From Desulfotomaculum sp. (GTDB lineage: Bacteria; Bacillota; Desulfotomaculia; Desulfotomaculales; Desulfallaceae), in NCBI GenBank assembly GCA_016841675.1, contig JAENYQ010000037.1:1-32812 (forward strand): 32,812 bases of DNA, written 5' to 3'. Of this stretch, positions 13,588 through 30,168 are shown in pieces. The notes beneath the pieces were generated by a model, which saw nothing but the letters and a program-made list of their open reading frames with translations, ran no database searches and was not told the DNA's origin. How positions within the stretch are numbered: the first letter of the stretch is position 1; every line of letters begins with the position of its first letter. A program made the position numbers and the translations under genes.

Positions 13588-13687
13588 AGGCTGTCAGACA
13601 CCATACTTGTTAATTGTAATATAAAAAATATTTTCATATAATACCATTAATAGACAAGTTCGTTCGCTTATGTATTGGAGGTTTATT

Positions 13688-14770
13688 ATGGGAAATGTGA
13701 TAAAAGAGCAAAAAGGCATGGCCATACCTATGGTTTTAGTGTTTATGGCTGTTTTAATGATGTTGGGTACGGCATTAATGCAATTCAGTACTGCAGAAGC
13801 TATTCAAGTTGCCAGGGGAAAGGACAAAAAACAGGCCTATTACGTTGCCAGAACGGGGGCCGACGCTACTGCAGCGTGGATAATCGGTAATTATAATGAC
13901 GTAAGCGAATTAAATGCAGCCAGTTATTTACCATTTAACGGCACGGGATATTTGGATTATGGTAATTTCAAGGTCAATGTGGAAGAGCTTGATAACGGCA
14001 AGTTAAGAATCAACAGCCGGGGTTTTGCTGGAAATACAAGTGATATAGTAAACTTAACCGTGGTACCACAGGACCTGTTTGACAATGCCATGTTTGGCAC
14101 GGCTTTTATTAATTTAAAAGGCAGCGTGATAATAAACGGCAACCTGGAGTGCAACGGAACTATAACTTTCGACGGTACTGCCTATACGATGAGTGATGAG
14201 TATGAGTGTATTGAAAACTCGGAACGCATTTACCCGGAAGTAGACCCTTTTCCCGAAAATAATTCAACAGAAATAATTGACGTATCTAATGGTATTACAC
14301 ATCCTATTACATCAGAATCAAGTTATGACAAAATTAACGTAAAAAACGGCGGTACCCTGTCGTTTAATGTCTCCACGGACACTGTTGTTATTGTAAACGA
14401 CCTGGATGTTAAAGGAAGTCTTAAAGTGGAAGGTACAGGTACACTGTATTTATACGTAAGAAACTTTGTAGTTGGCGGCAACGGCAAGGTAGTTAATAAT
14501 GCCGACTCTACATCACTTATTGTATTATTACCGCCTAACGGGTTAATAAATTTTGGTGGGTCACCTGAATTTAGGGGAATCATATATGGCCCAAATGCAA
14601 CGGCAACCTTCAGTGGTGATACAGAATTCACCGGGTCATTAATTGCGGGGGAGGTTGTAAATAACGGTAATCCTACTGTTAACTACGATCCCGCTGTTGC
14701 CGATCTTTCTCCGGATGATATTCCGGTTGACAACCTTTTTACAGGTCTTGAGAGGGGAGTATGGTCTTAA
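13688..14770 (+). CDS. PilX-like minor prepilin with beta-helical exported domain
   Basis: This protein of 360 residues starts at ATG 13688, preceded by TTGGAGG; the upstream ATG at 13670 lies before that site. The leader ends EQKG, followed by MAIPMVLVFMAVLMMLGTAL, a prepilin-like helix without Glu at +5, as in PilX-N family proteins. The downstream KQAYYVARTGADATAAW matches the conserved A-x2-A-E/D-A-G region. The C-terminal 230 residues are Gly/Asn/Val-rich and repetitive (NGNLECNGTITF, VKGSLKVEGTGTLYLYV), suggesting a right-handed beta-helix as in bactofilin or DUF7305 proteins. It is likely exposed at the pilus tip or on the cell surface. Confidence 0.72.
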   Translation: MGNVIKEQKGMAIPMVLVFMAVLMMLGTALMQFSTAEAIQVARGKDKKQAYYVARTGADATAAWIIGNYNDVSELNAASYLPFNGTGYLDYGNFKVNVEELDNGKLRINSRGFAGNTSDIVNLTVVPQDLFDNAMFGTAFINLKGSVIINGNLECNGTITFDGTAYTMSDEYECIENSERIYPEVDPFPENNSTEIIDVSNGITHPITSESSYDKINVKNGGTLSFNVSTDTVVIVNDLDVKGSLKVEGTGTLYLYVRNFVVGGNGKVVNNADSTSLIVLLPPNGLINFGGSPEFRGIIYGPNATATFSGDTEFTGSLIAGEVVNNGNPTVNYDPAVADLSPDDIPVDNLFTGLERGVWS

Positions 14771-14794
14771 AACAATAAGTTGGAGGAAGAAAAC

Positions 14795-15172
14795 ATGATC
14801 ATTAATCAAATCAATAACTACTTTAAAAATAATGGTTTTTCCTTAATAGAAAATATGATTGCTATACTAATTATGCTCATAATTAGTATAGCTTATACAG
14901 CATTATTTACAAACGCATTTACAGGTGTCTATTCCGCCGGATACAAAAGTGAAGCCTTATTAACAGCTCAGGATGACCTGGAAAATGCAATTGCTGATTC
15001 TAATTTTATAGGAAATGACATAGGGAAAAAGTCTTTTACTGTCACAATTACCCGAGGTGATACCGGAATTAACGACCCAATTAATGTAACGGGTACAGAG
15101 ATTCAGGTTACCAAAAACTATGATGATGACAGTAAAAACGTTGTTTTAAAAACTTTTGTTCCGGATGAATAA
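14795..15172 (+). CDS. PilV-like minor prepilin
   Basis: This 125-residue protein begins at ATG 14795 with GGAGG 8 bases upstream. A 14-residue leader ends KNNG, then FSLIENMIAILIMLIISIAY with Glu at mature +5. The remaining 90 residues form a small beta-rich domain. Its stop overlaps the next gene. It forms a minor-pilin set with its two neighbours, probably a priming complex for pilus assembly. Confidence 0.82.
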   Translation: MIINQINNYFKNNGFSLIENMIAILIMLIISIAYTALFTNAFTGVYSAGYKSEALLTAQDDLENAIADSNFIGNDIGKKSFTVTITRGDTGINDPINVTGTEIQVTKNYDDDSKNVVLKTFVPDE

Positions 15173-16322
15173 AAATATGGTTAGTTTTAAAAAGGGGATT
15201 ATTAATATTTACATTTATAATAAGCACGGACTAACGATTGTTGAGCTGTTGGTAACCCTATTTCTCTTAATCCTTGTGCTTACCATGTCGTTATCTTTTT
15301 ACTTGTTTTCCACCAACTCATTTACCAAAGGTACAAGCCGGGCCGATGTTCAACAAAATGTTCGATTGGCATCAGAACTTATAACCAGAGAAATACGCTA
15401 CGCAAATAGTCTTGAAATAATTGACAATTCATCTTTTACACCCGATATTGGATATAATTATCTATATACGAACGATGGAAACTTAATACATATTAATGCT
15501 GAAGGAGTGGTAACTAAACTATTTGGCGAAATATCAAGCATGGTATATTTTACCTTAAAACTTGAACGTAGTACTAACGGCAATCATATATTAAACTTTA
15601 ATATTGAAGGAAAAGATAATGAAAATATATTTGATATAGGCTCCGAGGTTTTAATGTTAAATTTAAAGGAAATAGAGGACCATAGTACGGGTTACGGAAC
15701 TGCTATTAAATATAGTAAAATTGCGTCTGCAAAAATTATTGTACTTAACCCTGAATATCACGTTACCGGATCAGGACAAAGTATTGAAGTTATAGTAGAA
15801 ACAAGTAATATCCCTGACGGTGCTAGTGTTATCGCTGAATTCTGTGAAGTTGACAAAACTTCCTTTGGTCCGCAAATCCTTGATAATGATACAGTTATAA
15901 ATAATAGGGCTATTTTAGAACTAAATGTTGATAGTTTAAATAGTGAAGCTGGTTACTATAAAGTTAAAGTTACTGTTAGTGGAATTCCGGAACCGGTTTA
16001 TAAGTCCTATGTAATAGGGAAACCAATAATTGATTTAGTTAAAATTGAGCCATCATCTCATTTAGCCGGTAATGAGCAACAAATTACCGTAAATATTGTT
16101 ACCAGGTATGTCACAGAAGGTACTCCTTGTGAAGTTAGTTTCATTCAAATAGATGGTACTGGTGAGGATGATATTAGTAATAATGGTATCATCAATGATA
16201 ATTCGGCAGAGCTTTTTTTAAATATTAACGATAATAAACCAATTGGGAATTACGAAGTAAAAGTTACCGCTCAAAACATCGAACCATATATTATAAACTA
16301 CGAAATAAAAAATCCTTCTTGA
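15165..16322 (+). CDS. PilW-like minor prepilin with two Ig-like domains
   Basis: This 385-residue protein has a prepilin helix after KHG (LTIVELLVTLFLLILVLTMS, Glu +5). A PilW/PilJ-type domain follows (DVQQNVRLASELITREIRYA). From about residue 190 there are two tandem stretches of about 95 residues with the same opening, VLNPEYHVTGSGQSIEVIV and VKIEPSSHLAGNEQQITVNI, and the same ending, YYKVKVTV / NYEVKVTA, which look like Ig-like/bacterial beta-sandwich repeats. ATG 15165 overlaps the previous stop (ATGAATAA). It is markedly AT-rich compared with pilB-pilO. An adhesive tip role is inference. Confidence 0.75.
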   Translation: MNKNMVSFKKGIINIYIYNKHGLTIVELLVTLFLLILVLTMSLSFYLFSTNSFTKGTSRADVQQNVRLASELITREIRYANSLEIIDNSSFTPDIGYNYLYTNDGNLIHINAEGVVTKLFGEISSMVYFTLKLERSTNGNHILNFNIEGKDNENIFDIGSEVLMLNLKEIEDHSTGYGTAIKYSKIASAKIIVLNPEYHVTGSGQSIEVIVETSNIPDGASVIAEFCEVDKTSFGPQILDNDTVINNRAILELNVDSLNSEAGYYKVKVTVSGIPEPVYKSYVIGKPIIDLVKIEPSSHLAGNEQQITVNIVTRYVTEGTPCEVSFIQIDGTGEDDISNNGIINDNSAELFLNINDNKPIGNYEVKVTAQNIEPYIINYEIKNPS

Positions 16323-16431
16323 AGCGGGTAAACCTTTCTCACTCCAGCATACATTTTTATATTCTCCGGCAGAATAATGCTGGGCGAAATAGCTTAGGAA
16401 GTGCACGCCATTATGTTTTAATAACTATATA

Positions 16432-16460
16432 TATACAATTACTATGTTTTGTTATATAAT
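16432..16460 (+). promoter_or_regulatory. Promoter of the pseudo-PilT / SipW operon
   Basis: TATACA (16432-16437, 4 of 6) and a perfect TATAAT (16455-16460) are separated by 17 bp. The riboswitch begins about 20 bases after the -10. The rest of the 16323-16431 gap holds only a weak CCAGCAT/ATGCTGG hairpin (16344-16383) without a T-tract. Confidence 0.65.
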
Positions 16461-16479
16461 CATACATATTATATTAATA

Positions 16480-16566
16480 AAAGGCAAACTTTCCCGAAAG
16501 GGAGGGGCGCAAAGCTACGGGCCTTGGGCTACCCACGCGGTGGCTACGGCAGCCGGGTTGCCTTGG
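16480..16566 (+). promoter_or_regulatory. c-di-GMP-I (GEMM-I) riboswitch, second copy
   Basis: This is a near-ideal GEMM-I aptamer: AAAAGGCAAACT, hairpin TTCCCGAAAGGGA (GAAA tetraloop), GGGCGCAAAGCTACGGGCCT, a variable P3 stem, then GGCTACGGCAGCCGGGTTGCC. The AGGCAAAC segment puts a G at the Vc2 G20 position, favouring c-di-GMP. It sits in the 5' leader of the pseudo-PilT gene and is followed by a terminator. Confidence 0.93.
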
Positions 16567-16575
16567 GTTAACAGG

Positions 16576-16617
16576 ATCCAAACCTAAGTAAAACTAGCGT
16601 TTGGATTTTATTTTTTC
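16576..16617 (+). terminator. Riboswitch expression platform, intrinsic terminator
   Basis: ATCCAAAC (16576-16583) pairs with GTTTGGAT (16599-16606), with inner CTA/TAG pairs, followed by TTTTATTTTTT. It ends 30 bases before the start codon of the next gene, so it would switch the whole downstream operon. The direction of control is not obvious because the hairpin starts about 10 bases after the aptamer. Confidence 0.82.
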
Positions 16618-16646
16618 CAGCATTCAGCTTTATAGTAGGAGGAAAT

Positions 16647-17690
16647 ATGCATAATCAGGATAATTTGATGAAAATATTGGCCTACGCAAAGGATAGCAAT
16701 GCCACGGACCTGCATATTGCAGCGGGAGCCGTTCCGGCGGTGCGGGTGGAAGGAAAGTTAAGGTATACACCTTTTGAGAGCATTTTGCCAAAGGATACGG
16801 AGAATATTGTATTGGGTCTTCTTAATGAAGAACATAAAAATATGCTTAAAACCAATCACTATCTTAGCTTACCGGTAGCGTTCCAGAATATCGGCAGGCT
16901 TAGAGCTAATATTTTCATGCAAAGAGGTTCTTTTTCCATCAATTTCAAGCTTTTGGATAGACTCCTAAAAACACCGGAAGAACTGCACATTCCTCAAGTG
17001 GTCATGGAACTTTATAAACAAAAGAGCGGACTTATTTTGATTTGCGGTAAAAGAAAAAGTATATCAGCAACCAGGGCAGCTATTGTCAAGAAAATAAGTG
17101 AAACTAGAGCATGCCACATTATCACCATTGAAGACCCTATTGAATACTTATTTAAGCACGATAAAGCCATTGTAAACCAAAAAGAAATAGGCATTGACGC
17201 CAATAGTTACCATGAAGGGATTTATTCTGCTATAACCCAGGACCCTGATGTAATTATGATCAGCTTTGCCGGGGACCCCGATACTTTTTCTGCTGCTCTT
17301 ACTGCGGCAGAAAACGGCCATTTGGTCATTACTTCTCTTAACACCATTGGTTCTGTTAAAACCATCCGGTATATAATCGAGATGTTCACTGCAGAAAAAA
17401 GAAATCACATCATAATGCAGTTACACAATGTCCTCAAGGCCATCGTTTCACAACAGCTTATTCCATCCAAGGACGAAACGTTTAGTATACCTGCGATGGA
17501 AATAATGCTGGCGACTAGTGCCACGAATAATCTGATTACTGAAAATAAAATTCATCAGCTTCCAGATGTAATCAAGGCGAGCAAAACCCTAGGTATGATA
17601 ACTATGGATGATTCTATTAATGCCCTCCACGCCCGGGGGCTAATCTCACAAGAAAACGCTTTGAACTATTTATTGCAGTATAAAGGGTAA
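16647..17690 (+). CDS. PilT-family pseudo-ATPase
   Basis: This 347-residue protein aligns end to end with PilT at 4588 (ATDLHIAAGAVPAVRVEGKL, RANIFMQRGSFSINFKLLD, ITIEDPIEYLF, AMEIMLATSATNNLI). However, the Walker A position reads GKRKSISATR (134-143) instead of GPTGSGKSTT, losing the catalytic Lys and Ser/Thr. The Walker B Glu is gone (ISFAGD at about 205-210 versus VGEMRD), and the His box is TSLNT instead of STLHT. The frame is intact and well conserved, so it is a maintained pseudoenzyme rather than decay. TAGGAGG precedes the ATG. It leads the riboswitch-controlled operon and may regulate or cap PilB/PilT hexamers; that role is inference. Confidence 0.88.
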   Translation: MHNQDNLMKILAYAKDSNATDLHIAAGAVPAVRVEGKLRYTPFESILPKDTENIVLGLLNEEHKNMLKTNHYLSLPVAFQNIGRLRANIFMQRGSFSINFKLLDRLLKTPEELHIPQVVMELYKQKSGLILICGKRKSISATRAAIVKKISETRACHIITIEDPIEYLFKHDKAIVNQKEIGIDANSYHEGIYSAITQDPDVIMISFAGDPDTFSAALTAAENGHLVITSLNTIGSVKTIRYIIEMFTAEKRNHIIMQLHNVLKAIVSQQLIPSKDETFSIPAMEIMLATSATNNLITENKIHQLPDVIKASKTLGMITMDDSINALHARGLISQENALNYLLQYKG

Positions 17691-17717
17691 ATCACTTGTT
17701 TCAAGGGGAATGCTATT

Positions 17718-19400
17718 TTGCTGAAGTTGAATTCTTATAGCAATATCATCAGCCTGATTGAATCATATCGGATTATATCAATATTTTTAACTTTATCCAT
17801 TTATATAATTAATGGAATATTTGCCCGGTATTCTATTTCGGCCATGCTATTACTGGCCTGCTGCATAGTTTCTTCCGCTTTTCTTTTAATGTATCTCTAT
17901 CGTATCAGTATAGAAATGAGATGGAGACTTAACTTTTTGCTCATTGTAGAAATTATCGGCATAGCGGTGCTAATGGTATTAACGGGTGGATTGAACAGCC
18001 CGTTTATCTGGTATTTTTTAAACCCATTACTAATTATTTCCTGCTATATGCAACCCAAAGAAAAAGTTTTTTACCTAATTGCAAATTTTATACTCTTATC
18101 GGCTACGGGATATTACCAGGAGCAAACTCTGGAATTAAAAGATTATCTCTTATCGTACCTAAATATCATTTTAAGTTATGTTTTAATTCTGATTCTGGTA
18201 AACATCCTTTTTAATTATTACAACCTGATTAGCAAAAAGAGAGCAGAATTGCGAGAGACTAATGAAAAGCTGGCCAGCTCCAACGCGAAAATCAAGGGCC
18301 TGATTGAGGATATCCTGTTTATGTATGAAGCAGTGCAGGCAATTTCCAATCAGAGAGACAGACGTGAGATTTTACATATTCTTTTGGATTTCGTGGGAAG
18401 GATTTCTCCCGAGTCACAGACGTTTTTTTTATTTAATGACTGGAATAAGACGGACAGTTTGGTATCATTAAAAACCATCGGAGAAGATTTAAAGCATGGC
18501 CTAATTAAAACGGTAAAAGATAATTATTCACAGATCCTCAAAGACAATGCTTCACTGTACACACTGGAAACCGGCGACAGGGCAGTTTTAATCAAAGTCT
18601 CCAATTTAAGTGATTACGGCGTTATTGGACTAATCATCCCGGAAAGGGAATCTCATTTAGAAAAGGAGGAGTATACTTTAAGCCTTCTTTTCTTTTCCCG
18701 ACTGGGGGCCATGCTGCTAGAAAAAATTGAGGTGGAAGCAGTTAACTATGAACTGGTTATTGCAGATGAGCAGAACCGCATTGCGGATGATATTCACGAC
18801 AGTGTTGTGCAGCGGCTTTTTGCCATGTCTTGCATGACTTACGACACCCTAAAGAAATGGGACCGGATGAGCGACCCGGAAAAAAGGGAGCAAATGGCGC
18901 TGGCCAAGGAGACTATTCAAAGTTCATTAAAAGACCTGCGTTCCACCATCTATAATTTGAGCCATAAAAAGCAGCAGATTGACCTTTTTCAAGAGAGCGT
19001 CAATTTATATCTGCGGGACTTGGAAAGGCTCAGCGGTATTAAAATAAATATTAATATCGACGACGGGGATGACAATCTTTCCACAGGAGCCAAGAAAGCG
19101 TTGTACCGAATCATTATTGAGAGTACCGGAAATGCCATTAGGCATGGAAAATGTCAAAACATCTGGGTCAAGCTAAGTATCGGTGATTTAAAAACCTGTT
19201 TGACTATCAAAGATGATGGTAGCGGTTTTGACCTGGCTCAAACGGAACTGGAGCAGCATGGTCTGGGATTGTATAATATTAAAAGCCTAATTAGAATTTT
19301 TAATGGCAACATTAATATTATTACAGACAAGGGCTCCGACACCATTGTGAAAATCATGTTTTCCAATATGGATATTATGAAAAAGCTGGCAGAAGATTAA
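17718..19400 (+). CDS. Membrane histidine kinase, NarX/DesK (HisKA_3) type
   Basis: This 560-residue protein starts at TTG 17718 with AAGGGGA 8 bases upstream. Five or six membrane spans lie at about 20-170, a short coiled coil follows (about 172-200), then a GAF-like region (about 210-345). The HisKA_3 H-box EQNRIADDIHDSVVQRLF carries the phospho-His at residue 360. HATPase motifs follow: NAIRHG (about 472), DDGSGF (D499) and HGLGLYNIKSL. It senses through the membrane or GAF part and phosphorylates a NarL-type regulator; the one at 24525 (minus strand) is the obvious partner. The gap after the pseudo-PilT stop is 27 bases, so the genes are probably co-transcribed. Confidence 0.9.
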   Translation: MLKLNSYSNIISLIESYRIISIFLTLSIYIINGIFARYSISAMLLLACCIVSSAFLLMYLYRISIEMRWRLNFLLIVEIIGIAVLMVLTGGLNSPFIWYFLNPLLIISCYMQPKEKVFYLIANFILLSATGYYQEQTLELKDYLLSYLNIILSYVLILILVNILFNYYNLISKKRAELRETNEKLASSNAKIKGLIEDILFMYEAVQAISNQRDRREILHILLDFVGRISPESQTFFLFNDWNKTDSLVSLKTIGEDLKHGLIKTVKDNYSQILKDNASLYTLETGDRAVLIKVSNLSDYGVIGLIIPERESHLEKEEYTLSLLFFSRLGAMLLEKIEVEAVNYELVIADEQNRIADDIHDSVVQRLFAMSCMTYDTLKKWDRMSDPEKREQMALAKETIQSSLKDLRSTIYNLSHKKQQIDLFQESVNLYLRDLERLSGIKININIDDGDDNLSTGAKKALYRIIIESTGNAIRHGKCQNIWVKLSIGDLKTCLTIKDDGSGFDLAQTELEQHGLGLYNIKSLIRIFNGNINIITDKGSDTIVKIMFSNMDIMKKLAED

Positions 19401-19415
19401 TTAGAGGATTAAAAG

Positions 19416-20585
19416 ATGGGCAAAAGAGAATACGAAGCGTTAGGAATAATTTTAATAATTGTGCTTTCCATGGTTTTAGGGTATCAAGTCTTGCCGTTAT
19501 TGATAGGATCTACCGGTTACTTATTTGTTTTTAAACCCCTGTTTTGGTTCGGGCTGTCCCTTTATATCTGGAAAAAACCCAGGTGTAAATTCAAAGGAAA
19601 ACTTAAACTATATAATTTTATCCTAATGTGGAGCACCATCTGCGCCATCTTTTACATCTTTGTCTTTTTTTCGGGGGGGTTTTTGGATGGTATTGGCGCC
19701 AGTCCTTACGCTAAAAACATCCAGGGAATAATAATTAACGTATTTTCTTTCGGTAGTGTCATCGTAATGATGGAATGGGTAAGAAACTATCTCATTAACC
19801 GGGTCAAGAAAGAATATCTGATAACCTTTTGTTTACTCACGGTAGTTGTCTTTTCCCTGTACCGGCTGAACTTGAGGGTCATCACCGGTCTTGATACCTG
19901 GACGCAGTTTATCCAATACGCGGGAGAATATGCTCTTCCGGAAATCATGGTTAACATCCTGCTCACATATATGGTTTATCTGGGAGGAGCATATCCGGCC
20001 ATGATTTTCAGCACCCTGACATCCCTACCGATGTGGGTGTTCCCCGTGTTGCCCAACCTGGCGTGGATTACCAAGGCCTTTATCGGAATCATGATGCCGG
20101 TAGTGTTTATCCTGGTGATTAGACAAGTTTACCAAAAACAGGCGCGGGAAATAAAACTCAAGGAACAAAAAAAGGAAAATGCCGGTTCATGGATTGCTGT
20201 AAGTGTCATCTCCATCGTCTTGATCTGGTTTGCCGTAGGAGTCTTTAAAGTATTCCCTACGGTGATATTAACGGGAAGCATGGAACCTGTTTTGTACCCG
20301 GGAGATGTAGCGTTGATAAAAAAGTGCGACAGCAAGGAAGTACAGGTGGGAGATGTGATTCACTATTGGAAGGAACAAATATTCATAGTTCATAGGGTAA
20401 TTGAAATAGACGAAGTTAAAGAGGAATTGCGCACCAAAGGGGATAATAACAGTGCCCCCGACTCAAAGCCGGTGACACCCGGACAAATTAGGGGAAAAAT
20501 GATCGGGAAAATTCCTAAACTGGGATGGCTAAATCTTTTTTTAAAGAGTGATTCCAGGGTTCCAAATGAAGATGTCGTATTCTAA
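19416..20585 (+). CDS. SipW/ER-type signal peptidase I with multi-span N-terminal extension
   Basis: This protein has 389 residues, against about 170-190 for a standard SipW. The N-terminal 270 residues hold roughly seven or eight hydrophobic spans. The peptidase domain follows: TGSMEPVLYPGD with Ser288, FIVHRVIEI with His326, and GDNNSAPD (D343, D349). A His in place of the usual bacterial Lys marks the archaeal/ER (S26B) Ser-His type used by SipW. It should cleave TasA/camelysin-like precursors, and such precursors follow in the same operon. TAGAGG precedes the ATG; the gap after the kinase is 15 bases. Confidence 0.88.
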   Translation: MGKREYEALGIILIIVLSMVLGYQVLPLLIGSTGYLFVFKPLFWFGLSLYIWKKPRCKFKGKLKLYNFILMWSTICAIFYIFVFFSGGFLDGIGASPYAKNIQGIIINVFSFGSVIVMMEWVRNYLINRVKKEYLITFCLLTVVVFSLYRLNLRVITGLDTWTQFIQYAGEYALPEIMVNILLTYMVYLGGAYPAMIFSTLTSLPMWVFPVLPNLAWITKAFIGIMMPVVFILVIRQVYQKQAREIKLKEQKKENAGSWIAVSVISIVLIWFAVGVFKVFPTVILTGSMEPVLYPGDVALIKKCDSKEVQVGDVIHYWKEQIFIVHRVIEIDEVKEELRTKGDNNSAPDSKPVTPGQIRGKMIGKIPKLGWLNLFLKSDSRVPNEDVVF

Positions 20586-20605
20586 CCATTTTTAGAGGTG
20601 AGACA

Positions 20606-21703
20606 ATGAAGCTCAGTAAACAAATGAAAAAGTTTGTAATCATACTGAGCATCATTTTGTTACTTATTTTCTCCGTTTGTGCCCTTTTTGAATTAAAGAC
20701 AACCAAATATGAGGAAAAGCAGGAAGTTTATTATGCTTATCAAAGCAAAGGCAGTGTTGATTACACGGTTTTTTTCAGGACTAACGTCATGTATGACCAA
20801 TCATATATGGAAAAAGACAGGTACTATGTTTTCAAGTATATTGATCATGTGGAGCTCAAGTTTAAGTACCAGTTTAAAGGCAGCGACCCGGCCCAGCTAA
20901 AAACAAATTATCTGGTTAAAGCATATCTGCAAGGCCTGCACGGCAAAGAAAACGAAGTGCTGTGGAGCAAGGAGTATGTTTTGGTTCCCCAGCAGGTGGA
21001 ACAGGAAGAGAATACGGACAGGGTGATTGAAATCACTGTGCCGGTAACTCTGGACAGTTATTGGGCGTTAAAGGAAACAATTTTTAATGATTCGGAGGTT
21101 AACAGCCCGGTGGTGCTTAATGTATTCTTCGATGTCCGGACCCTGGCATCCACCCCAAAGGGTACTCTGGAAGATAAAATGAGCCCTAATATTATAATTC
21201 CCATCGGTGAAAATGTATTTAAAATAGAAGCTGCCCCTGAGATTAGCGGGGAAAATTCCATCGCTGAAACGATCAAAGTCCAGATGCCTGTTGATATGAG
21301 GAAAATATCCATTTACTTTGCCATTTCCTTTATTTTCCTCATAATGGCGGTTTTATTGGCGTTATTCATCAAAGTAGCCGTTCCTCCCGATACTTTTGAC
21401 AGGACCATGGCTCGTATTTTTAAAGAGTATGGAGAAAGGCTGGCCGGGATGGAACAAGCTATATCATACCAGCTTGCCAATATCGTCAGTGTCACTTCTA
21501 TTGAGGATATGGTAAAAATTGCCGACGAAGTGGGCCAACCGGTTTTCTATTACAAAGTAAACAGTCCGCTGGAAAGAAAGATTGAGTTTTACGTTTTTGA
21601 CAGCGGCAGGGTTTACTATATGGTAATGTTCGGTGAAATCAAGCCGGCAGCGGAAAGCCCGATTCAGGTTGAGAGTGGAAAGGACACCCGGATAAGCATG
21701 TGA
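20606..21703 (+). CDS. DUF5305-like membrane protein
   Basis: This 365-residue protein has one N-terminal helix (about 9-30), an exported beta-rich domain of about 200 residues (VDYTVFFRTNVMYDQ, VELKFKYQFKG, DRVIEITVPVTLDSYW), a second helix (about 232-252) and a cytoplasmic tail of about 110 residues. The layout and opening match DUF5305 proteins, which are often found next to S26B signal peptidases in archaea and Firmicutes; this is from memory. GAGGTGAGACAATG marks the start. It is a likely accessory factor for fibre secretion or assembly; its function is unknown. Confidence 0.65.
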   Translation: MKLSKQMKKFVIILSIILLLIFSVCALFELKTTKYEEKQEVYYAYQSKGSVDYTVFFRTNVMYDQSYMEKDRYYVFKYIDHVELKFKYQFKGSDPAQLKTNYLVKAYLQGLHGKENEVLWSKEYVLVPQQVEQEENTDRVIEITVPVTLDSYWALKETIFNDSEVNSPVVLNVFFDVRTLASTPKGTLEDKMSPNIIIPIGENVFKIEAAPEISGENSIAETIKVQMPVDMRKISIYFAISFIFLIMAVLLALFIKVAVPPDTFDRTMARIFKEYGERLAGMEQAISYQLANIVSVTSIEDMVKIADEVGQPVFYYKVNSPLERKIEFYVFDSGRVYYMVMFGEIKPAAESPIQVESGKDTRISM

Positions 21704-21707
21704 TGCT

Positions 21708-21740
21708 ACTTTAGTACTATACTATAAACTTTAGTGCTAT
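21708..21740. promoter_or_regulatory. Two 13-bp direct repeats 20 bp apart, possible regulator site
   Basis: ACTTTAGTACTAT (21708-21720) and ACTTTAGTGCTAT (21728-21740) differ at one base, and their starts are exactly 20 bp (about two helical turns) apart. They lie in the 164-base gap before the first TasA-like gene. No clear -35/-10 pair could be assigned nearby. A binding site for the NarL-type regulator is possible but unproven. Confidence 0.4.
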
Positions 21741-21867
21741 GCAGAATAAACTATTTAAGCACCGAGAATGGTAAGCCAGGGTAATGCGCAGTGCAAAATC
21801 AAGATGTAAAATGATATCGTAGTAAAAGAATTACATAATAAAATAATTGAATAAGGAGATGTTAGGC

Positions 21868-22560
21868 ATGAAGAGAACAAAATTTGTTCTGCTGGCTCTT
21901 GTAGCTGCGATGATATTAATGGGTGCCGGGTATGCCGCCTGGAGCCAAACCTTTACCATCAACAGCACAGTTTCCACCGGTGAGTTGTTTGTAATGATTA
22001 GCGATGAAGGGATAACCAGTGTAATTGTTGATAAAGATGGTGATGGCGATTATGTTGTTGGAGCGGGAGAGACAGATGAAAATGTCACGCCAGCGACTGC
22101 TGACGCAAATTATCTAGTGTACCCCACAGTCGCAACCACTGCTGGTGATACGTCCGGAGCTAACACCACCCTTGCAAAAATAGAATATACTATTGATTTA
22201 TATCCGGGTACTCAGGTTACCAGTGAAATTAATTTTGAAAACCTAGGGACAATAAAAACTAAGCAACCGGTAGTTTCCGCTACAAGTGGGACCATAATCG
22301 GTGACGACCTGTGGGATGATCTGGTTATAACAGTTAACGGTGGTGCGGCAATAGACGGCGCAGGTCAGGATAAGCTAAATAACCTTGCTGATGCTATCGC
22401 TGCTGCAGTGGGAGCTCTTGAGCCTAATGGTGATGGAGAAGCAACCGTTACGATAGTCCAGGAACTGCCTATAACCAGTGGAAATGAAACTGAGAATAAA
22501 GAGTCGTTAGATTGGGAAGTCGAGCTCACCTTTGAACAATACAATGACCTAACAGAATAA
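21868..22560 (+). CDS. TasA/camelysin-like exported protein with SipW-type signal peptide
   Basis: This 230-residue protein starts at ATG 21868, 9 bases after AAGGAG. The signal region is MKRTKFVLLALVAAMILMGA then GYAAWSQTFTINSTVSTGEL, the classic SipW-cognate signature (G-Y-A-x-W followed by a strand and STG-L). The mature part is Thr/Ala/Asp-rich and beta-like, with an acidic DKDGDGDY loop resembling a calcium site, and it ends in VELTFEQYNDLTE. It is the first substrate gene after the signal peptidase and has the largest upstream gap, so it may be the main fibre subunit. Assignment to the superfamily is good; detailed function is inference. Confidence 0.8.
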   Translation: MKRTKFVLLALVAAMILMGAGYAAWSQTFTINSTVSTGELFVMISDEGITSVIVDKDGDGDYVVGAGETDENVTPATADANYLVYPTVATTAGDTSGANTTLAKIEYTIDLYPGTQVTSEINFENLGTIKTKQPVVSATSGTIIGDDLWDDLVITVNGGAAIDGAGQDKLNNLADAIAAAVGALEPNGDGEATVTIVQELPITSGNETENKESLDWEVELTFEQYNDLTE

Positions 22561-22598
22561 TAACCTCCAGTAACAGATAAAAAACGGTCAAATTATTC

Positions 22599-22651
22599 GG
22601 GGACATACCCTCAAATCAAGAGTCCAAAACTCCTGTGCGAGGAGTGTCCCC
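22599..22651 (+). other. Stem-loop between the first two exported-protein genes
   Basis: GGGGAC (22599-22604) pairs with GTCCCC (22646-22651) and encloses ACTCCT/AGGAGT with a GTGCG loop. Only a weak T-run follows (TTTGATTT). It could be an attenuator or an RNA-stability element separating levels of the first gene from the rest. Confidence 0.4.
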
Positions 22652-22679
22652 TTTGATTTAAAAAGGGGTTTGCATCCGC

Positions 22680-23342
22680 ATGAGGTTCAAAATTGGCAAG
22701 TATAAAAGCCTTTTGGTGTTTGCAGTGGTATCATTAATCATTATGGGACTTAGTTACAACATGGCCGGCGCCCAGGACTTTAGAAATTCCGCTCTGGCGT
22801 ACAATCTGATGGTGCTGGTGCCCGAGGAGTGCGAAGTGCTGGATACCAGCCCGGGTGTGTTGGCCGATGTCGAATTCCAGCGTGACAAGTTTGGCAATAT
22901 TAGTGACAAGACTAATATCAATCTCATGGCGACAAATGTTTATGCCGGGGCTCATGCGGAATTTCGAATTACGGCTCAAAACGTCAGTGACATCACTCTT
23001 TCAGTTGATGAGTACAAATTGGAGTTTGAACAGAGTGAGGATTCTTTAGCCGACTTAATCTATTTTTCCGGTATCGTAAAAATAATCAGGTACGGGGAAC
23101 AATATTACGATGAGCTGGGTTCTTTTGAAAATGTCAGTCTCACCGAGCTTGACGATAACTTGACAGCAATTTTAAAATACAGGAAAATAGATCTAAAGGA
23201 AAAGATAGTGCTGGAATTAAACCAGCAGTTTGATAATGATCAAGCCAAATTTGCAGGCCGGACGAATTTGTCCTATAGACTGTTTCCGGTATTCGTCCAA
23301 TACTTTCCCCAGAACGACAAAACTACACCGGAAAGTGAATAA
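22680..23342 (+). CDS. Exported protein, probable TasA-like accessory
   Basis: This 220-residue protein has a basic start, a hydrophobic stretch (LLVFAVVSLIIMGLSY) and a likely cleavage near MAGAQ. The mature domain begins DFRNSALAYNLMVLVPEEC and has alternating beta-type sequence (AHAEFRITAQNVSDITLSV). It lacks the W-x2-F-x-I signature of its neighbours but sits between two genes that have it. The ribosome site is weak (AAAAAGGGG, about 11 bases upstream). The stop is 2 bases from the next start. No family was recognised with certainty. Confidence 0.65.
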   Translation: MRFKIGKYKSLLVFAVVSLIIMGLSYNMAGAQDFRNSALAYNLMVLVPEECEVLDTSPGVLADVEFQRDKFGNISDKTNINLMATNVYAGAHAEFRITAQNVSDITLSVDEYKLEFEQSEDSLADLIYFSGIVKIIRYGEQYYDELGSFENVSLTELDDNLTAILKYRKIDLKEKIVLELNQQFDNDQAKFAGRTNLSYRLFPVFVQYFPQNDKTTPESE

Positions 23343-23344
23343 TT

Positions 23345-23875
23345 ATGGCAGCTTTATTTAAAAGATATAAAACCAAAAGAAAAAATCAATCAGGAAAACT
23401 GTTGTACATAAGGACAATATTTATTGTCCTTATTGTTGCATTGGGGCTCTTTGGGGCAAGTTATGCTTCCTGGACCCAGCAATTTAATATTTTAAGCGCC
23501 ATATCTACGGGCAGTCTTAATGTGGATATAGTAGATGCCGTGCTGGAAAGTTCCGATAGCCATAAATCGATTTCATTTTCAGCCCATAAAGAAGGTAACG
23601 TGGTTGATGAGGTGGACATGAATGTGGTGACTGCCTCCAATCCTTTTAGCGCGGTGATGGTTTTTGCCGTAGAAAATAACGGGACCATACCAGTGATTTG
23701 TGTCGGCATTGACCAAAGTGTCCCCGACAATTTAGAAGTGGAAATCCTGGAATCCCCTCCCCTCATTGATGTGGGAGAAACAGAATCCGTCAAGGTAAGG
23801 ATTACCAAAGGATACTGCGATGATTTTGAATTTAGTGCCTTTCTTGAATTTGAGCAGTATAACGCAGTAAATTAG
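23345..23875 (+). CDS. TasA/camelysin-like exported protein (short)
   Basis: This 176-residue protein has a long basic N-region (KRYKTKRKNQ), a hydrophobic core and the signature GASYASWTQQFNILSAISTG followed by SLNVDIVDAV, the same pattern as the gene at 21868. It ends SAFLEFEQYNAVN, echoing the FEQYN end of that protein. It has a two-base gap from the previous stop and a weak ribosome site, so it is probably translated by coupling. It is likely a minor fibre or anchoring subunit, by analogy with TasA/TapA pairs; this is inference. Confidence 0.76.
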   Translation: MAALFKRYKTKRKNQSGKLLYIRTIFIVLIVALGLFGASYASWTQQFNILSAISTGSLNVDIVDAVLESSDSHKSISFSAHKEGNVVDEVDMNVVTASNPFSAVMVFAVENNGTIPVICVGIDQSVPDNLEVEILESPPLIDVGETESVKVRITKGYCDDFEFSAFLEFEQYNAVN

Positions 23876-23903
23876 GATAGACAAGGTACTTGGAGTGATT
23901 GAT

Positions 23904-24485
23904 GTGAAAAAGCCGGCAGTAATCATTTTTCTCATTCTGTTGATGTCTATTTTTCTGGTAAGTGCCAGCTTTGCCTTTTGGAAACATGATGCCGAAGTTA
24001 AATTTACCCTGAACATCGCCCAGCCCGATGATGGGGAATTCAGTTGCGGCGATTATACGACAATTCAAGAAGGCATTGATCTCCTTGCAGATATTAAATA
24101 TTTCTATATTTACGACCTAATGATTGAGTTTGAAAATGAATTGGATGCACGGGTGATTGAACTGAACAACCTCCCCTTCGGAGGCATTACCCTTAATGAA
24201 CTTCGGGAAGAATGCAATTACTATCGTAATGTTGATATTTCAAGATTCGGTGATATAATCGATCAATACGGAAATTGCATACGCAAATTGGCTGACTTTT
24301 ACAGAAATTCTTCCCAGGAAGAGAAGGACCAGGTCCCTGATTTTTGGGATCAGCATACCATGTTATGGGGTTTGCACACTCAACTTTGGAACCAACGTCA
24401 GGACCTCTATGATGTGGTTGAAGAGGTGTGGGAAGCCGGTGAAGAGAAGATTGACTATAATCATGGCGGTAAAAAGGATAAATAA
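23904..24485 (+). CDS. Exported protein with SipW-type signal and helical mature domain
   Basis: The start is placed at GTG 23904, 8 bases after GGAG; a GTG at 23895 is inside that site. The signal is VKKPAVIIFLILLMSIFLVS then ASFAFWKHDAEVKFTLNI, SipW-like. The mature part differs from its neighbours: it is charged and helical (LMIEFENELDARVIELNNL, EEKDQVPDFWDQHTMLWGLH) with an aromatic-rich heptad-like end and a basic tail (HGGKKDK). It contains three Cys residues (one in FSCGDY). It is the last gene of the operon. Function is unknown; a stalk or wall-linked partner is one possibility. Confidence 0.7.
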   Translation: MKKPAVIIFLILLMSIFLVSASFAFWKHDAEVKFTLNIAQPDDGEFSCGDYTTIQEGIDLLADIKYFYIYDLMIEFENELDARVIELNNLPFGGITLNELREECNYYRNVDISRFGDIIDQYGNCIRKLADFYRNSSQEEKDQVPDFWDQHTMLWGLHTQLWNQRQDLYDVVEEVWEAGEEKIDYNHGGKKDK

Positions 24486-24524
24486 ATCCATTAGGTAGGG
24501 AAATATGGAAGAATGGACGAATGG

Positions 24525-25160
24525 CTAATTGTTGTTTTTACTTTTTAGTTGACTGGCATATAAAGCGGCCTGGGTACGATCATTAAAGTTCAATTTTGCC
24601 AGTACTTGACTTACATGTTTTTTAACAGTGTTTTCGCTGATAAAAAGTTTATCAGCGATTTTTTTATTTGAGAGTCCTTGGCCCAGGCAGGTCAAAACTT
24701 CTATTTCCCTGGGGGAAAGTATTTCATCAAGGTTCTCCAATTCCCCACCGTGACCGGGGTCATTTTTCTTTTCCATGAAAACAGGGTCAAAATATTTCCT
24801 TCCCTTGATTACGGTTCTAATGGCGTAGAGAATATCTTCGGGAAAGGCGTCCTTTAGAATATACCCGTCAACTCCCGCATTGATGGCTTTTGCACAATCC
24901 TCAGCCAGTGAAGAAGATGATAGAACGACAAATTTGCATCCCGGGTAAATACTTTTTGCCCGCTCAATAAAATCAATGCCGTTTTCATTTTTTAATCTCA
25001 TGTCCACCAGCACCAAGTTAAAATTATGTGCGGACATTAAATCCATGGCGGTTTTGATGTCATTAGCCTGCATCACATTTTCAATTTCCTGTTCGCCAAT
25101 GAGAATGGTTCTAATTCCATTGCAAACAAGGGGATGATCATCAACAATCAGCACATGCAT
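24525..25160 (-). CDS. NarL/LuxR-family response regulator
   Basis: This 211-residue protein runs from ATG 25160 (minus strand), MHVLIVDDHPLV, behind AAGGATGGGGG; the longer frame to 25238 adds 26 unlikely residues. The receiver domain has the acidic pair VDD, phospho-Asp in LVLVDMRL and Lys in YILKDAF. The C-terminal LuxR helix-turn-helix reads LSPREIEVLTCLGQGLSNKK then IADKLFISENTVKKHVS. It faces the exported-protein operon tail to tail, 39 bases apart. The matching HisKA_3 kinase is at 17718. Likely targets are the fibre genes; this is inference. Confidence 0.93.
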   Translation of the reverse strand: MHVLIVDDHPLVCNGIRTILIGEQEIENVMQANDIKTAMDLMSAHNFNLVLVDMRLKNENGIDFIERAKSIYPGCKFVVLSSSSLAEDCAKAINAGVDGYILKDAFPEDILYAIRTVIKGRKYFDPVFMEKKNDPGHGGELENLDEILSPREIEVLTCLGQGLSNKKIADKLFISENTVKKHVSQVLAKLNFNDRTQAALYASQLKSKNNN

Positions 25161-25834
25161 CCCGATACCCCCATCCTTATCCTGGTTAGACTTATCACAG
25201 GATGTCCAAACAAAACGAGCAGAGCTTTTCTTCCACAAAATACATTATATCAAAGAAGGAATGAATTTTACAATGTAGTATGTCACGGTGGTTACTGCTT
25301 TCTAAAGTCTCAAAAGTTTTTTTCTTGGCGCGATAGAGAACAGGTACTGACTCGCAAAACAAGGCGGCGCCTGTCCTTATTTGTAAGTCATTGCCCTGGC
25401 ATAAATAACTACAACTGTTTGGCTTCGGGATACCTCTTTTAGAGAAGGGTTGCCATTGGTAACCCTTGGTTTTATATTGTCTTTTCATGGGGTTTGCTTA
25501 GTTTCTTTCATTTTTAAAGATAACTGGATTTAAGAGCCTAATGAAATAAGCGCATCCTCTCGAGAGCGCCCTTTTTTGTTTGGAGGTTTCTACGCAGTTG
25601 AAAACGATGTTCCATGAATTCTTTTAGCTAACAATTCGGTACTTAAGCTATGATATGGGAGTAACGCACGCGGTGTTCAACATGGGCGGGCGATAGACAC
25701 ATGTCGTCATTTAGTATCTCAAAAATTAGTGTTGATCGTTGTATGTTCCTGTAGTAATATTATTTCGAAAAATTTGTGCAATTTAAAAAAAACCTGTTTG
25801 TTGTTTTAAAAATATTTTAACGAGAGGTGTTATT
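25161..25834. other. 674-base intergenic stretch, no convincing gene
   Basis: It separates the divergently read response regulator and DnaD-like gene. Two structures stand out. A hairpin AAGGGTT/AACCCTT lies at 25445-25467. A terminator-like GCGC-CTCTCGAGAG-GCGC stem with CTTTTTTG lies at 25550-25578, facing right with no gene before it. Short open frames here lack ribosome sites and recognisable sequence. The last 100 bases are AT-rich and may hold the promoter for the next gene. Confidence 0.5.
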
Positions 25835-26728
25835 ATGAATTACGTGCGCGAAATTAATGCCTTCACAGACTGGTTGGAAACAAACCCGCTTGAGTCCACT
25901 ACAATAGCCTTATGGTTTATCCTGATGGGCATAAACAACAAGTGCGGCTGGCGGGAATGGTTTACAGTGGCCAATCTGACACTACAGGCCAAAATTAGGG
26001 TTAGTAAAAACACGGTCATAAAGCACCGCAGCATTTTAGTGGAAAAAGGCCTCATCCAGTACGAAAACCAGGGCCGGGAGGTGGGCAAGTATCGGATGGT
26101 TTCCCTGATCAATAATCGAGGTGTGCATAATACACCGCAATATGAACCGACCTTTGAACCGACATATGAACCGGAAGGTAAACCGGAATGTGACCCCATA
26201 AAAAGTATTAGTGGAAATAATTCACCGATACGTACACCGAAACAGGAACCAATGGATAGCAGCGCTGGGAATTTGCCCCCGTATCTTGAACCGATCCCTG
26301 AACCGAACCCTGCGCCATTAATTAAACTAAACAAAACTAAACAAAATATAAAAGATATATATAAAGATATATATACCATTTTTCATCATTGGAACCATCA
26401 AAAAATTATAACCCACCGCAATTTAAATGAGGTAACCAAAGAACATATCAGGGCCACGTTAGCCGGCGGCTACACTGTGGAAGAAATTACGTCGGCCATT
26501 GACAACTATGCTGAAGTGCTTAACGGTCAGCAATACTACTGGACCTATCGTTGGGGACTGGACGAGTTTCTGCTACGCGGGGTGGATAAATTTAAAACCG
26601 CCAGCAACCCCAGAACCAACTTCTTGAAAGACAAATCCAAAGTGCCGGATAAGGCGCAAGTGAGTACGAATAAATATGACAAGTATGCCGAGTATACCAA
26701 CCGCGTCGTTGCCTACGATGACCTTTAG
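25835..26728 (+). CDS. DnaD / phage replication-initiation-like protein
   Basis: This 297-residue protein has an N-terminal winged-helix-like region (about 1-95: MNYVREINAFTDWLETN, SKNTVIKHRSILVEKGLIQY). A Pro/Glu-rich linker follows (YEPTFEPTYEPEGKPE and later PEPNPAP), then a C-terminal helical domain (VTKEHIRATLAGGYTVEEI, YYWTYRWGLDEFLLRG) like the conserved C-terminal domain of phage replication proteins. GAGAGGTG precedes the ATG. It stands alone with no phage or plasmid genes nearby, so it may be a relic of a mobile element or a domesticated replication gene. Confidence 0.65.
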   Translation: MNYVREINAFTDWLETNPLESTTIALWFILMGINNKCGWREWFTVANLTLQAKIRVSKNTVIKHRSILVEKGLIQYENQGREVGKYRMVSLINNRGVHNTPQYEPTFEPTYEPEGKPECDPIKSISGNNSPIRTPKQEPMDSSAGNLPPYLEPIPEPNPAPLIKLNKTKQNIKDIYKDIYTIFHHWNHQKIITHRNLNEVTKEHIRATLAGGYTVEEITSAIDNYAEVLNGQQYYWTYRWGLDEFLLRGVDKFKTASNPRTNFLKDKSKVPDKAQVSTNKYDKYAEYTNRVVAYDDL

Positions 26729-26881
26729 CAAGCTGCAGATGCATGGCGGCAGCAACCAGGGAGGTTAGGGTGTTCACCCTCGCTGCGTTATTAATTAAGG
26801 CGCAATCCCTAAAAGGAAATTAACACCGGTTTGTCGAAATGGGTATTTAACATATGTTCAATACTAAAGGAGTGATTGATT

Positions 26882-27286
26882 ATGCCAAAGCTTAACGGCG
26901 CAGTGAAAGATGTGTTTGTAAAAACAGCTATTTACCCGGTAGCTACAGCATCCAAAGATGGTATACCCAACGTTGTGCCCATTCATTTTGTAAAAATTTA
27001 CGATGAGGACACCATACTGCTGGTTGACAATTTCATGGCTAAAAGCCTGAAGAATTTACAGGAGAACCCTCAATTATCTATTAGCGTTTGGGATATGGAC
27101 AAAAAACAAGCCTACCAGATAAAAGGACAAGCTACCATTGTCACATCTGGGAAGCCATTTGATGAAGCGGTGGCTTGGGTAAAAAAAGGAAAGCCAAATT
27201 TAAACCCCAACTCGGCTATTCTTATGAAAGTAACCAATATATATAATTGCCAGCCCGGCCCTGATTTAGGCAAAGAATTAGAATAA
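26882..27286 (+). CDS. Pyridoxamine 5'-phosphate oxidase-fold (FMN-binding) protein
   Basis: This 134-residue protein starts at ATG 26882, 8 bases after AAAGGAGTG. The split-barrel FMN-binding pattern is seen: VATASKDGIPNVVPIHFVKI, ILLVDNFMAKSLKNLQENPQ, LSISVWDMDKKQAYQIKGQA. Small single-domain members bind FMN or related flavins and are mostly uncharacterised. It is intact and close to typical length. The truncated IclR reading frame begins directly after its stop. Confidence 0.8.
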   Translation: MPKLNGAVKDVFVKTAIYPVATASKDGIPNVVPIHFVKIYDEDTILLVDNFMAKSLKNLQENPQLSISVWDMDKKQAYQIKGQATIVTSGKPFDEAVAWVKKGKPNLNPNSAILMKVTNIYNCQPGPDLGKELE

Positions 27287-27291
27287 AATAA

Positions 27292-27861
27292 TGCAGCGCC
27301 ATTGATAATTTAAATATCCGGGATTATGCACTGCCGGTAATGGGTGCAATAGCCAGACAAACTAATGAAACAGTTAATTTATACATTCCATATGAAGGTG
27401 AATTGTTGCTCATTGAAAAGATTGATTCCACTCATGCGTTAAAAATATATACCAGGATAGGTGACCGCTTGCCGATTTATTGTACCTCCGTGGGTAAAGC
27501 GCTGCTGGCATGGATGGATGAAAATGAAAGAAAGGATCTTTTGTTAAGAACGATATTAAAACCTTTTACCCCCAAAACAATTTACCACCCGGATGAACTG
27601 GAAAAAGAAGTTTTAACTATTAGGGATAAAGGTTATGCCCTGTCCAACGAAGAGCTTAATATGGGAGTTTTATCTGTTGGTGCGCCAATATTCGGGCCGG
27701 AAGGGATGGCTATTGCCGGTATTAGCATTGCCTTGCCAGTAACCAGGGAAACCTTTACAGTGGATGAATTGGGCGAAATCGTAAAGAAGGGCACCACACA
27801 AATAAGCTTGGCTTGCGGGGGTGTCAGCACTAAACTTGCCGTATATTTTAATGTAAACTGA
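27292..27861 (+). pseudogene. IclR-family regulator lacking its DNA-binding domain
   Basis: The effector domain is recognisable: ALPVMGAIARQTNETVNLYI, IEKIDSTHALKIYTRIGDRL, PIYCTSVGKALLAWM, LEKEVLTIRDKGYALSNEEL, GVLSVGAPIFGPEGMAIAGI. IclR-like sequence extends upstream of the first Met (27340) back to a TAA at 27289-27291, with no winged-helix and no good start. About 80 N-terminal residues are missing. It may express a fragment from ATG 27340 but cannot bind DNA as an IclR repressor. Confidence 0.85.
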
Positions 27862-27880
27862 TTGTGGCTGGTTAAAAGTT

Positions 27881-27926
27881 AAAAGGGCAGGCACTGATTT
27901 AAAGATAAATCGGTGCCTGCCCTTTT
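27881..27926. terminator. Long bidirectional terminator hairpin
   Basis: The arm from AAAAGGGCAGGCACTG (27881) pairs over 21 bp (one G-T) with the arm ending TGCCTGCCCTTTT (27926), around an AAGA loop. A- and T-runs on both sides allow function in both directions. It closely resembles the hairpin at 30169-30210 after citrate synthase. Confidence 0.85.
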
Positions 27927-27944
27927 GGGGGCCGGCGTTTTTAA

Positions 27945-28001
27945 TTAACGTATGCTCATCGGGGTATATTTGCGCCGTTCCGCCACACACTTGTAAGCCG
28001 G
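27945..28001 (-). pseudogene. Citrate synthase 3' end remnant
   Basis: Read on the minus strand this gives PAYKCVAERRKYTPMSIR and a stop, against PAYKCVAERRSYTPMGKR at the end of the intact citrate synthase (30234-31589). Similarity stops abruptly upstream at the Pro codon. Only about 18 codons survive, together with a copy of the terminator. Confidence 0.85.
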
Positions 28002-28108
28002 TTGTGGATTGGGTTCAAATATGTATTCTAAAACCTTGAGCATTAATAGCAATAACTGGTATAATAACTTAATTCAATCCATTGTTATGGGGAATGAGGT
28101 TAACCGCA

Positions 28109-28573: not shown

Positions 28574-28988
28574 CAAATACATGCTCACCGATATAGACAA
28601 AGAGTCTATAGAAAACCTGTTCAAAAGCAAATTGTCTCACCGCCCGGAGATTTTATTTGCCTACCTGCACGGCTCTTTTTTACTGCCAACATCCTGTGGC
28701 GATGTTGATCTTGCGGTATACCTGGATGAAAAGGTTTTGCCATATAAACATTGGGAATATGAAGCCGAACTGTCTATGTGCCTGGATCAACAGGTAGGTA
28801 TGCCGGTAGACATAATGATTTTGAATTATGCCCCTGTTACCCTGCGTTATCATGTCAGTAGAGGCAAAATGCTGTTTAGCGTGGATGAAAAAGCCAGGTT
28901 TGATTTTCTGGAACAAACCTGGCGTGAATACTTTGATTATCAGCCAATTTTTCAGGCCTTCTTAAAAGATTTGTTAACCAACCGGTAG
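28563..28988 (+). CDS. mntA: MntA-like minimal nucleotidyltransferase antitoxin
   Basis: This 141-residue protein has HGSFLLPTSCGDVDLAVYLD, the G-S-x(9-10)-D-x-D nucleotidyltransferase motif of MNT proteins. A third acidic residue is likely in PVDIMIL. ATG 28563 lies inside the end of hepT. Together they form a complete type VII toxin-antitoxin pair. The surrounding DNA is full of gene remnants, consistent with an inserted accessory module. Confidence 0.9.
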   Translation: MRNNKYMLTDIDKESIENLFKSKLSHRPEILFAYLHGSFLLPTSCGDVDLAVYLDEKVLPYKHWEYEAELSMCLDQQVGMPVDIMILNYAPVTLRYHVSRGKMLFSVDEKARFDFLEQTWREYFDYQPIFQAFLKDLLTNR

Positions 28989-29173: not shown

Positions 29174-29184
29174 GGAGTGATTCT

Positions 29185-30167: not shown

Positions 30168-30168
30168 C

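Follow-up and report, generated by a model that had tools for sequence, protein, structure and literature searches.

Organisation and conservation of the locus

The stretch of DNA analysed here (32,812 nucleotides of Desulfotomaculum sp., contig JAENYQ010000037.1; hereafter the window), on contig C84 of 162 in the genome, holds a type IV pilus cluster. Genes for PilB, PilT1, PilC, PilM, PilN, PilO, a pilin, a Wzy-type ligase and three minor pilin-like proteins span positions 2909-16322. Beyond them lies the second of two riboswitches for cyclic dimeric guanosine monophosphate (c-di-GMP), followed by eight same-strand genes that end at 24485 and by a NarL-type response regulator gene on the opposite strand. 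The first of the eight encodes a PilT homologue whose catalytic motifs are lost (pseudo-PilT), and the others encode a sensor histidine kinase, a SipW-like signal peptidase, a DUF5305 protein and four exported proteins, namely two TasA/BsaA-like proteins (TasA1 and TasA2) and the products of open reading frames (ORF) 6 and 8. Comparison across genomes shows pseudo-PilT as a constant member of this SipW/TasA-type operon, under purifying selection and holding the first position at 3/3 loci.

A scan of about 85,000 species genomes identified two orthologues of pseudo-PilT, each 67% identical to it and both from metagenome-assembled genomes (MAGs) of Bacillota (L094, JAAZIQ010000085.1; L095, JAAZJT010000069.1). 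In L094 the complete set of nine genes, including the convergent response regulator, recurs with order and orientation unchanged (46-67% identity), and L095 keeps the first three up to the contig end. Judged by this exact recurrence, the nine-gene unit is therefore real. The original prediction had described an eight-gene operon reaching 24485 and had proposed a search for its gene order in relatives; the order is indeed conserved, and the eight genes stand, but the convergent response regulator belongs to the proposed unit, which moves its end to ~25160. On present genome comparisons the module is rare. No pseudo-PilT orthologue was found in the 100 nearest genomes, where full-length matches reach ~32-42% identity and the Walker motifs are intact in each match that was inspected by residue, and no orthologous DUF5305 (none above 32%) was found in 398 genomes of the phylum.

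A catalytically dead PilT under constraint

Pseudo-PilT is a full-length PilT homologue, with 36% identity to PilT1 of the same cluster, 312.6 bits against TIGR01420 (E 3.4e-93; slightly below the cut-off of 319.1), 69.5 bits against T2SSE and matches to solved PilT structures. Where active PilT has GPTGSGKS, its Walker A motif reads GKRKS-IS, and both orthologues have GSRYSGIS. The Walker B motif VGEMRD of active PilT is replaced by ISFAGD, and by ISNAGE and ISNTGE in the two orthologues. All three proteins are without the Walker A Lys and without the Gly, Glu and Arg of GEMRD in Walker B. Among 68 near-invariant columns, defined from 111 active PilTs, the three pseudo-PilTs all retain 40 and all lack 21 (including K141, G208, E209, R211, and R300 of AIRNLIRE), while the Asp-box EDPIE is retained. 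Pseudo-PilT is thus dead by sequence, as had been proposed from the altered Walker motifs.

The pseudo-PilT genes of L094 and L095 differ by 0.063 nonsynonymous (dN) and 0.80 synonymous (dS) substitutions per site, and the resulting dN/dS of ~0.08 is below the ratios of the kinase and SipW genes. In the tree, the three pseudo-PilTs group together with a support of 100, and the stem of their clade is long (1.8 changes per site). The pattern is most simply read as one old loss of catalysis followed by constraint.

Two other histories of the gene were considered and rejected. A decaying pseudogene is ruled out by the intact frame in three genomes, the shared losses and the low dN/dS, and a recent duplicate of PilT1 is ruled out by the tree, which places pseudo-PilT apart from the PilT1 clade. 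An origin from the PilT2 clade is not rejected (p of the approximately unbiased test, p-AU, 0.137), and pseudo-PilT stands on a long branch.

Other unusual PilT genes were encountered in the genomes compared. One, near TadB/TadC-like genes, has an intact Walker A motif and a Walker B motif that reads IGGMLD, with loss of the Glu, and is possibly a half-dead PilT (G190:C5:219-1316, L183). Another lies in two overlapping pieces with an internal stop, beside an intact PilT gene (G039:C1:3439734-3440722).

Position within a split pilus cluster

The pilX, pilV, pilW, gspH and pilV2 genes are contiguous in a genome of the same family (G004), and in a congener (G001) an active second pilT sits between pilW and gspH. 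In the window, the end of pilW lies at 16322, and orthologues of gspH and pilV2 resume at 31858 and 32370. A block of ~15.5 kb (16323-31857), with the riboswitch, the module and unrelated genes, interrupts the pilus cluster at the spot that the second pilT occupies in the congener. The pilus-cluster neighbourhood of the module is specific to this lineage.

The fibre genes and their processing

The signal peptidase matches TIGR02228, the model for signal peptidase I of the archaeal and endoplasmic reticulum (ER) type, at 85.5 bits (cut-off 51.85). It reaches 62.5 bits against the Bacillus SipW equivalog NF046067 (cut-off 190), and is SipW-like but not a Bacillus orthologue. The rules for the catalytic dyad and for the aromatic P2' residue, a feature of TasA processing by SipW, were taken from the literature (PMC10269814). 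Read in translation, the dyad consists of the Ser in GSMEP and the His in VHRV. An aromatic residue stands at the predicted P2' in three of the four exported proteins (TasA1, AW; TasA2, SW; ORF8, FW) and not in ORF6, which agrees with the earlier assignment of SipW-type signals to three of the four. DUF5305 proteins are paired with SipW in many Bacillota.

Taken singly, TasA1 and TasA2 reach no curated cut-off, TasA1 matching only PF12389 at E 0.023. A profile in which both are aligned with SipW-linked kin of other genomes (alignment A4) matches archaeal AbpX (1.9e-15) and Bacillus subtilis TasA (2.9e-5; structures 5of1, 8aur) in the PDB. Furthermore, at E<=0.1, 8/21 members of the alignment match TIGR04090 (BsaA) and 10/21 match TIGR04088 (the SipW-cognate signal). 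At the level of aligned kin, these profiles establish TasA1 and TasA2 as members of the TasA/BsaA-type family. A structure model of TasA1 from two sequences had a predicted local distance difference test score (pLDDT) of 35.7, too low to show a jelly-roll fold. ORF8 was confidently predicted as a signal and a helical bundle (mean pLDDT 81.5), and the model matched no known fold at E<=0.001. TasA fibres assemble via donor-strand exchange (PMC9674648), and by analogy the fibres of this operon may do so as well.

The two-component pair comprises a HisKA_3 and HATPase kinase and a receiver and GerE regulator, assigned by profiles, and its pairing is backed by the conserved neighbourhood. Since homologues of the kinase and/or the regulator recur beside SipW/DUF5305 without PilT, on contig C94 of the same genome and in G010, G016, G513, G455 and G390, the two-component system is, by this comparison, part of the fibre module and pseudo-PilT the addition. 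The C94 locus (C94:12000-30000, L146) is a second SipW/DUF5305 locus with homologous kinase and regulator genes and TasA-like signal proteins, and it also encodes a protein of 628 residues whose repeats read like S-layer homology domains.

A single transcript of the eight forward genes is only putative, since a 164-nucleotide gap precedes TasA1, the first of the fibre genes, and a conserved hairpin lies behind TasA1. The element ACTTTAGTRCYAT occurs 3' of the DUF5305 stop in two copies in the window and in one copy at the same place in L094. In addition, the GGGGACA hairpin 3' of TasA1 is conserved in position and stem sequence in L094 (z -2.6 in the window, -4.3 in L094). Judged by these two elements, the fibre genes may be transcribed from a start of their own, and TasA1 may be made in excess. 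The features of the unit are collected in Table 1.

Table 1. Features of the riboswitch leader and the nine-gene unit in the window.
Feature	Position	Strand	Evidence or remark
Sigma-70-like promoter candidate, TATACA-17-TATAAT	16432..16460	+	10/12 match; weak alone
c-di-GMP-I (GEMM-I) aptamer	16473..16565	+	RF01051, 66.8 bits
Expression platform (antiterminator, terminator, U-tract)	16563..16616	+	Folding prediction
Pseudo-PilT	16647..17690	+	PilT family; Walker A Lys and Walker B Glu lost
Membrane sensor histidine kinase, HisKA_3 + HATPase_c	17718..19400	+	Profiles; orthologues 54-55% identity
ER/archaeal-type signal peptidase I (SipW-like), long N-terminal extension	19416..20585	+	TIGR02228; 61% to L094
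DUF5305 protein	20606..21703	+	91.8 bits, cut-off 29
Two copies of ACTTTAGTRCTAT directly 3' of the DUF5305 stop	21708..21740	+	Candidate operator/promoter element, fibre genes
TasA1, TasA/BsaA-like exported protein, SipW-type signal YA|AW	21868..22560	+	56% to L094
GGGGACA...TGTCCCC hairpin between TasA1 and ORF6	22599..22651	+	Candidate partial terminator or processing site
ORF6, exported protein, no aromatic P2'	22680..23342	+	47% to L094; no family match in the profile search
TasA2, second TasA/BsaA-like protein, SipW-type signal YA|SW	23345..23875	+	Sequence and kin alignment
ORF8, SipW-type signal FA|FW and predicted helical bundle	23895..24485	+	Seen in this operon alone
NarL-type response regulator, convergent	24525..25160	-	Profiles; same place in L094, 66%

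The window also holds features outside the unit. A group II intron fragment (10834-11497; RF02005, 66 bits), with most of the middle of the model absent, lies beside a truncated ParA-like start, and together they are mobile-element debris within the pilus cluster. Downstream of the unit, an IclR-type regulator is reduced to its C-terminal domain (27340-27861). A HepT/MNT-type gene pair and an orphan ORF (27901-30291) are flanked by two 85%-identical copies of one stretch. This stretch corresponds to the terminal (3') part of the citrate synthase gene at 30234, and the arrangement looks like an insertion with duplication.

The riboswitch leader

The aptamer ahead of pseudo-PilT is a clear covariance match (16473-16565, forward strand; 66.8 bits, gathering threshold 35, E 3.5e-11), and from the G and C at the ligand-contact positions (Vc2 numbering) we take its ligand to be c-di-GMP rather than cyclic GMP-AMP (cGAMP). 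A terminator stem (16576-16583/16599-16606) with a U-tract up to 16616 follows; the original description of an aptamer and terminator heading eight same-strand genes is borne out. The promoter placed upstream at 16432-16460 fares less well: the site exists but is weak evidence alone, because the region has 39 such sites against 25 in shuffled sequence.

Folding suggests how the leader might switch. P1 pairs 16474-16484 with 16561-16571 and can coexist with the terminator. An antiterminator (16563-16569/16575-16581) overlaps the 3' strand of P1 and excludes both, and it is the best fold only until the 3' arm of the terminator is present. Because the antiterminator competes with ligand-stabilised P1, binding is predicted to favour termination, which would make the leader an OFF switch with c-di-GMP.

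A second, divergent c-di-GMP-I aptamer precedes pilB (2705-2786, 40.3 bits). Its leader (2705-2815) has a terminator-like hairpin (TGCGG...CCGCA) with a T-run, and no clear antiterminator was found by folding this region. The third aptamer of the genome (C61:36000-44513, L147) precedes an HD-GYP-like gene and then a CBS-GGDEF-like gene, with domains read by eye. These three aptamers, together with the MshEN domain that PilB carries, make c-di-GMP signalling in this genome well supported. The presence of a riboswitch at this place is unremarkable, since 54/60 relatives of the order have c-di-GMP-I riboswitches (up to 16 per genome). None was detected upstream of the L094 and L095 operons, including in a second, weak look at L094, or at those second-PilT loci of relatives that were read by cmscan.

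A possible link between pili and fibres

The module may produce a SipW-processed extracellular fibre of the TasA/BsaA type, with pseudo-PilT docking on the pilus machinery and sensing its state for the kinase; we give this reading a probability of about 0.4. Pseudo-PilT would still assemble like PilT, without ATP use, and would dock either on the pilus machinery of the inner membrane or on hexamers of the motor. Once docked, it could report pilus state to the adjacent kinase, which with the convergent NarL-type regulator would set the expression of SipW, DUF5305 and the fibre genes, as PilA2 does via BsaRS in Clostridium perfringens. In the lineage of the window, the module in the pilus cluster would have come under a c-di-GMP-I riboswitch, with a predicted shut-off at high c-di-GMP. 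In Vibrio cholerae, PilU depends on PilT, and an inactivated PilT can still support PilU-driven retraction (PMC6762196), which makes a non-catalytic role credible. A preserved dead motor suggests a signalling or docking job that ties fibres to pili, and type IV pilus genes are present in all three genomes with pseudo-PilT. The genomes of L094 and L095 have, elsewhere, pilC, pilM, pilN-like, pilO and pilB genes, a prepilin-peptidase-like gene and minor pilins. Their pili seem to lack a retraction motor, because the PilT-family search of these genomes gave only pseudo-PilT and PilB as long matches and no active PilT (MAGs may be incomplete). The stricter proposal, that pseudo-PilT was recruited as a pilus-state sensor to the histidine kinase and couples pili to the fibre even where there is no active PilT, is more tentative.

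Several points weigh against this docking and sensing role. Contact of pseudo-PilT with pili, PilC, PilT or the kinase is putative, and its docking surfaces may have changed with the loss of R300 of AIRNLIRE and other conserved PilT residues. The L094 and L095 operons lie downstream of a glmM-glmS-ribozyme-nagB-like region and a transglycosylase-like gene, with no pilus genes beside them. The parallel between BsaRS and the two-component pair is drawn on role and setting. Moreover, the module adjoins a pilus cluster in only 3/40 DUF5305-bearing genomes. Two of these are G159 and G165 (L244, L245; of the order of G150), where a SipW-DUF5305-TasA-like module lies directly beside a pilus cluster and the only match is of the PilB type. 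With these two sharing one order, a link of SipW/DUF5305 to pili by genome position is suggestive only. At these two loci, one neighbouring gene ends in an LPxTG-like tail. In G186 (contig C10, L182), a Tad-type cluster is followed by a DUF192-like gene, an active PilT gene, kinase and regulator genes of the families in the window and a gene for a large exported protein; an association of pilus motors with this family of two-component systems is thus recurrent but not general.

Pseudo-PilT might instead act on the pilus motor itself, as a non-catalytic subunit in a mixed hexamer with PilT1 or as a brake that blocks PilC, co-expressed so that retraction stops during matrix making. Its full-length identity to PilT1, the 40 near-invariant columns that it keeps and the position of its gene inside the pilus cluster, where the congener has an active second PilT, would all suit such a role, as does the PilT/PilU coupling, in which motors require more than one PilT-type protein (PMC6762196). 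However, with no active PilT found in L094 and L095 for it to mix with (incomplete MAGs permitting), such a role could be common to the three genomes only through action on PilB or PilC alone, and we consider this account unlikely. Somewhat less likely still is that pseudo-PilT has left the pilus and serves fibre export by SipW and DUF5305, for example as a cytoplasmic scaffold or a signalling ring beside the kinase. Its sole constant neighbours are indeed the kinase, SipW and DUF5305, the operon lies outside pilus clusters in L094 and L095, and the long stem branch and altered C-terminal motif point the same way; yet all three genomes have type IV pilus genes, and in C. perfringens a SipW operon is known to respond to the state of the pili (PMC7395162).

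The original prediction saw in the locus a c-di-GMP-switched change from pili to a fibre, with pseudo-PilT as the link. The aptamers before pilB, pseudo-PilT and the HD-GYP-like gene and the MshEN domain of PilB would fit such a switch, but neither orthologous operon has a riboswitch, riboswitches abound throughout the order, and the predicted OFF leader would lower operon expression at high c-di-GMP. The model is not supported as stated: it is highly improbable as an explanation of the locus, and a c-di-GMP switch is unlikely as a conserved function of the module. That the gene merely decays or hitchhikes without function is harder still to credit, since the absent catalytic residues are set against an intact frame in three genomes, shared losses, dN/dS of ~0.08 and a constant first position in the operon.

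If pseudo-PilT does dock and sense pilus state, it would be an uncommon example of a secretion-type ATPase that is catalytically dead yet conserved and that has a regulon of its own. Coordination of pili and matrix fibres is known in outline in few Gram-positives (e.g., PilA2 acting via BsaRS). Pseudo-PilT, at the head of a SipW/TasA operon and beside a kinase, is a concrete and testable candidate for the carrier of the signal.

Comparison with known systems

Taken one by one, SipW/TasA operons, their two-component systems, a tie to pili and c-di-GMP-I riboswitches linked to pili are known or ordinary. A connection between pili and SipW fibres has a precedent in C. perfringens (PMC7395162), and the new part is the conserved catalytically dead PilT; no description of a conserved, selected pseudo-PilT as first gene of a SipW/TasA operon was found in the literature searched. 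SipW-DUF5305-HisKA_3/NarL modules without PilT, for which the same literature likewise gave no description, share the kinase and/or regulator families (C94, G010, G016, G455, G513, G390), but have no pseudo-PilT and a different gene order.

The closest parallel is the sipW-bsaABCRSD operon of C. perfringens, which requires BsaRS and is ON in all cells after deletion of pilA2, only if bsaS is present (PMC7395162). Like the unit described here, it combines a SipW peptidase, a BsaA/TasA-type fibre protein, exported accessory proteins and a dedicated two-component system, and its kinase is reported to connect it with the type IV pilin PilA2. Its read-through terminator behind bsaA (PMC7395162), the main fibre gene, resembles the hairpin after TasA1. 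Unlike the unit in the window, that operon holds both the kinase and the regulator genes, and neither a riboswitch nor a pilT-like gene has been reported there. The tapA-sipW-tasA operon of B. subtilis (PMC9674648) also pairs a SipW-type peptidase with cognate exported fibre proteins; it has three genes, without a kinase, DUF5305 or PilT, and TapA was not recognised among the genes of the window.

Pilus clusters of relatives (e.g., G022, G037, G055) also hold c-di-GMP-I aptamers, but the controlled gene in the window is a dead PilT heading a fibre operon. With the PilT/PilU pair (PMC6762196) the locus shares full-length PilT homology and a second PilT-like protein besides the active one in the genome. 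However, pseudo-PilT has lost the Walker A Lys and the Walker B Glu, both of which PilU requires (PMC6762196), and its gene is linked to fibre export and not to pilT.

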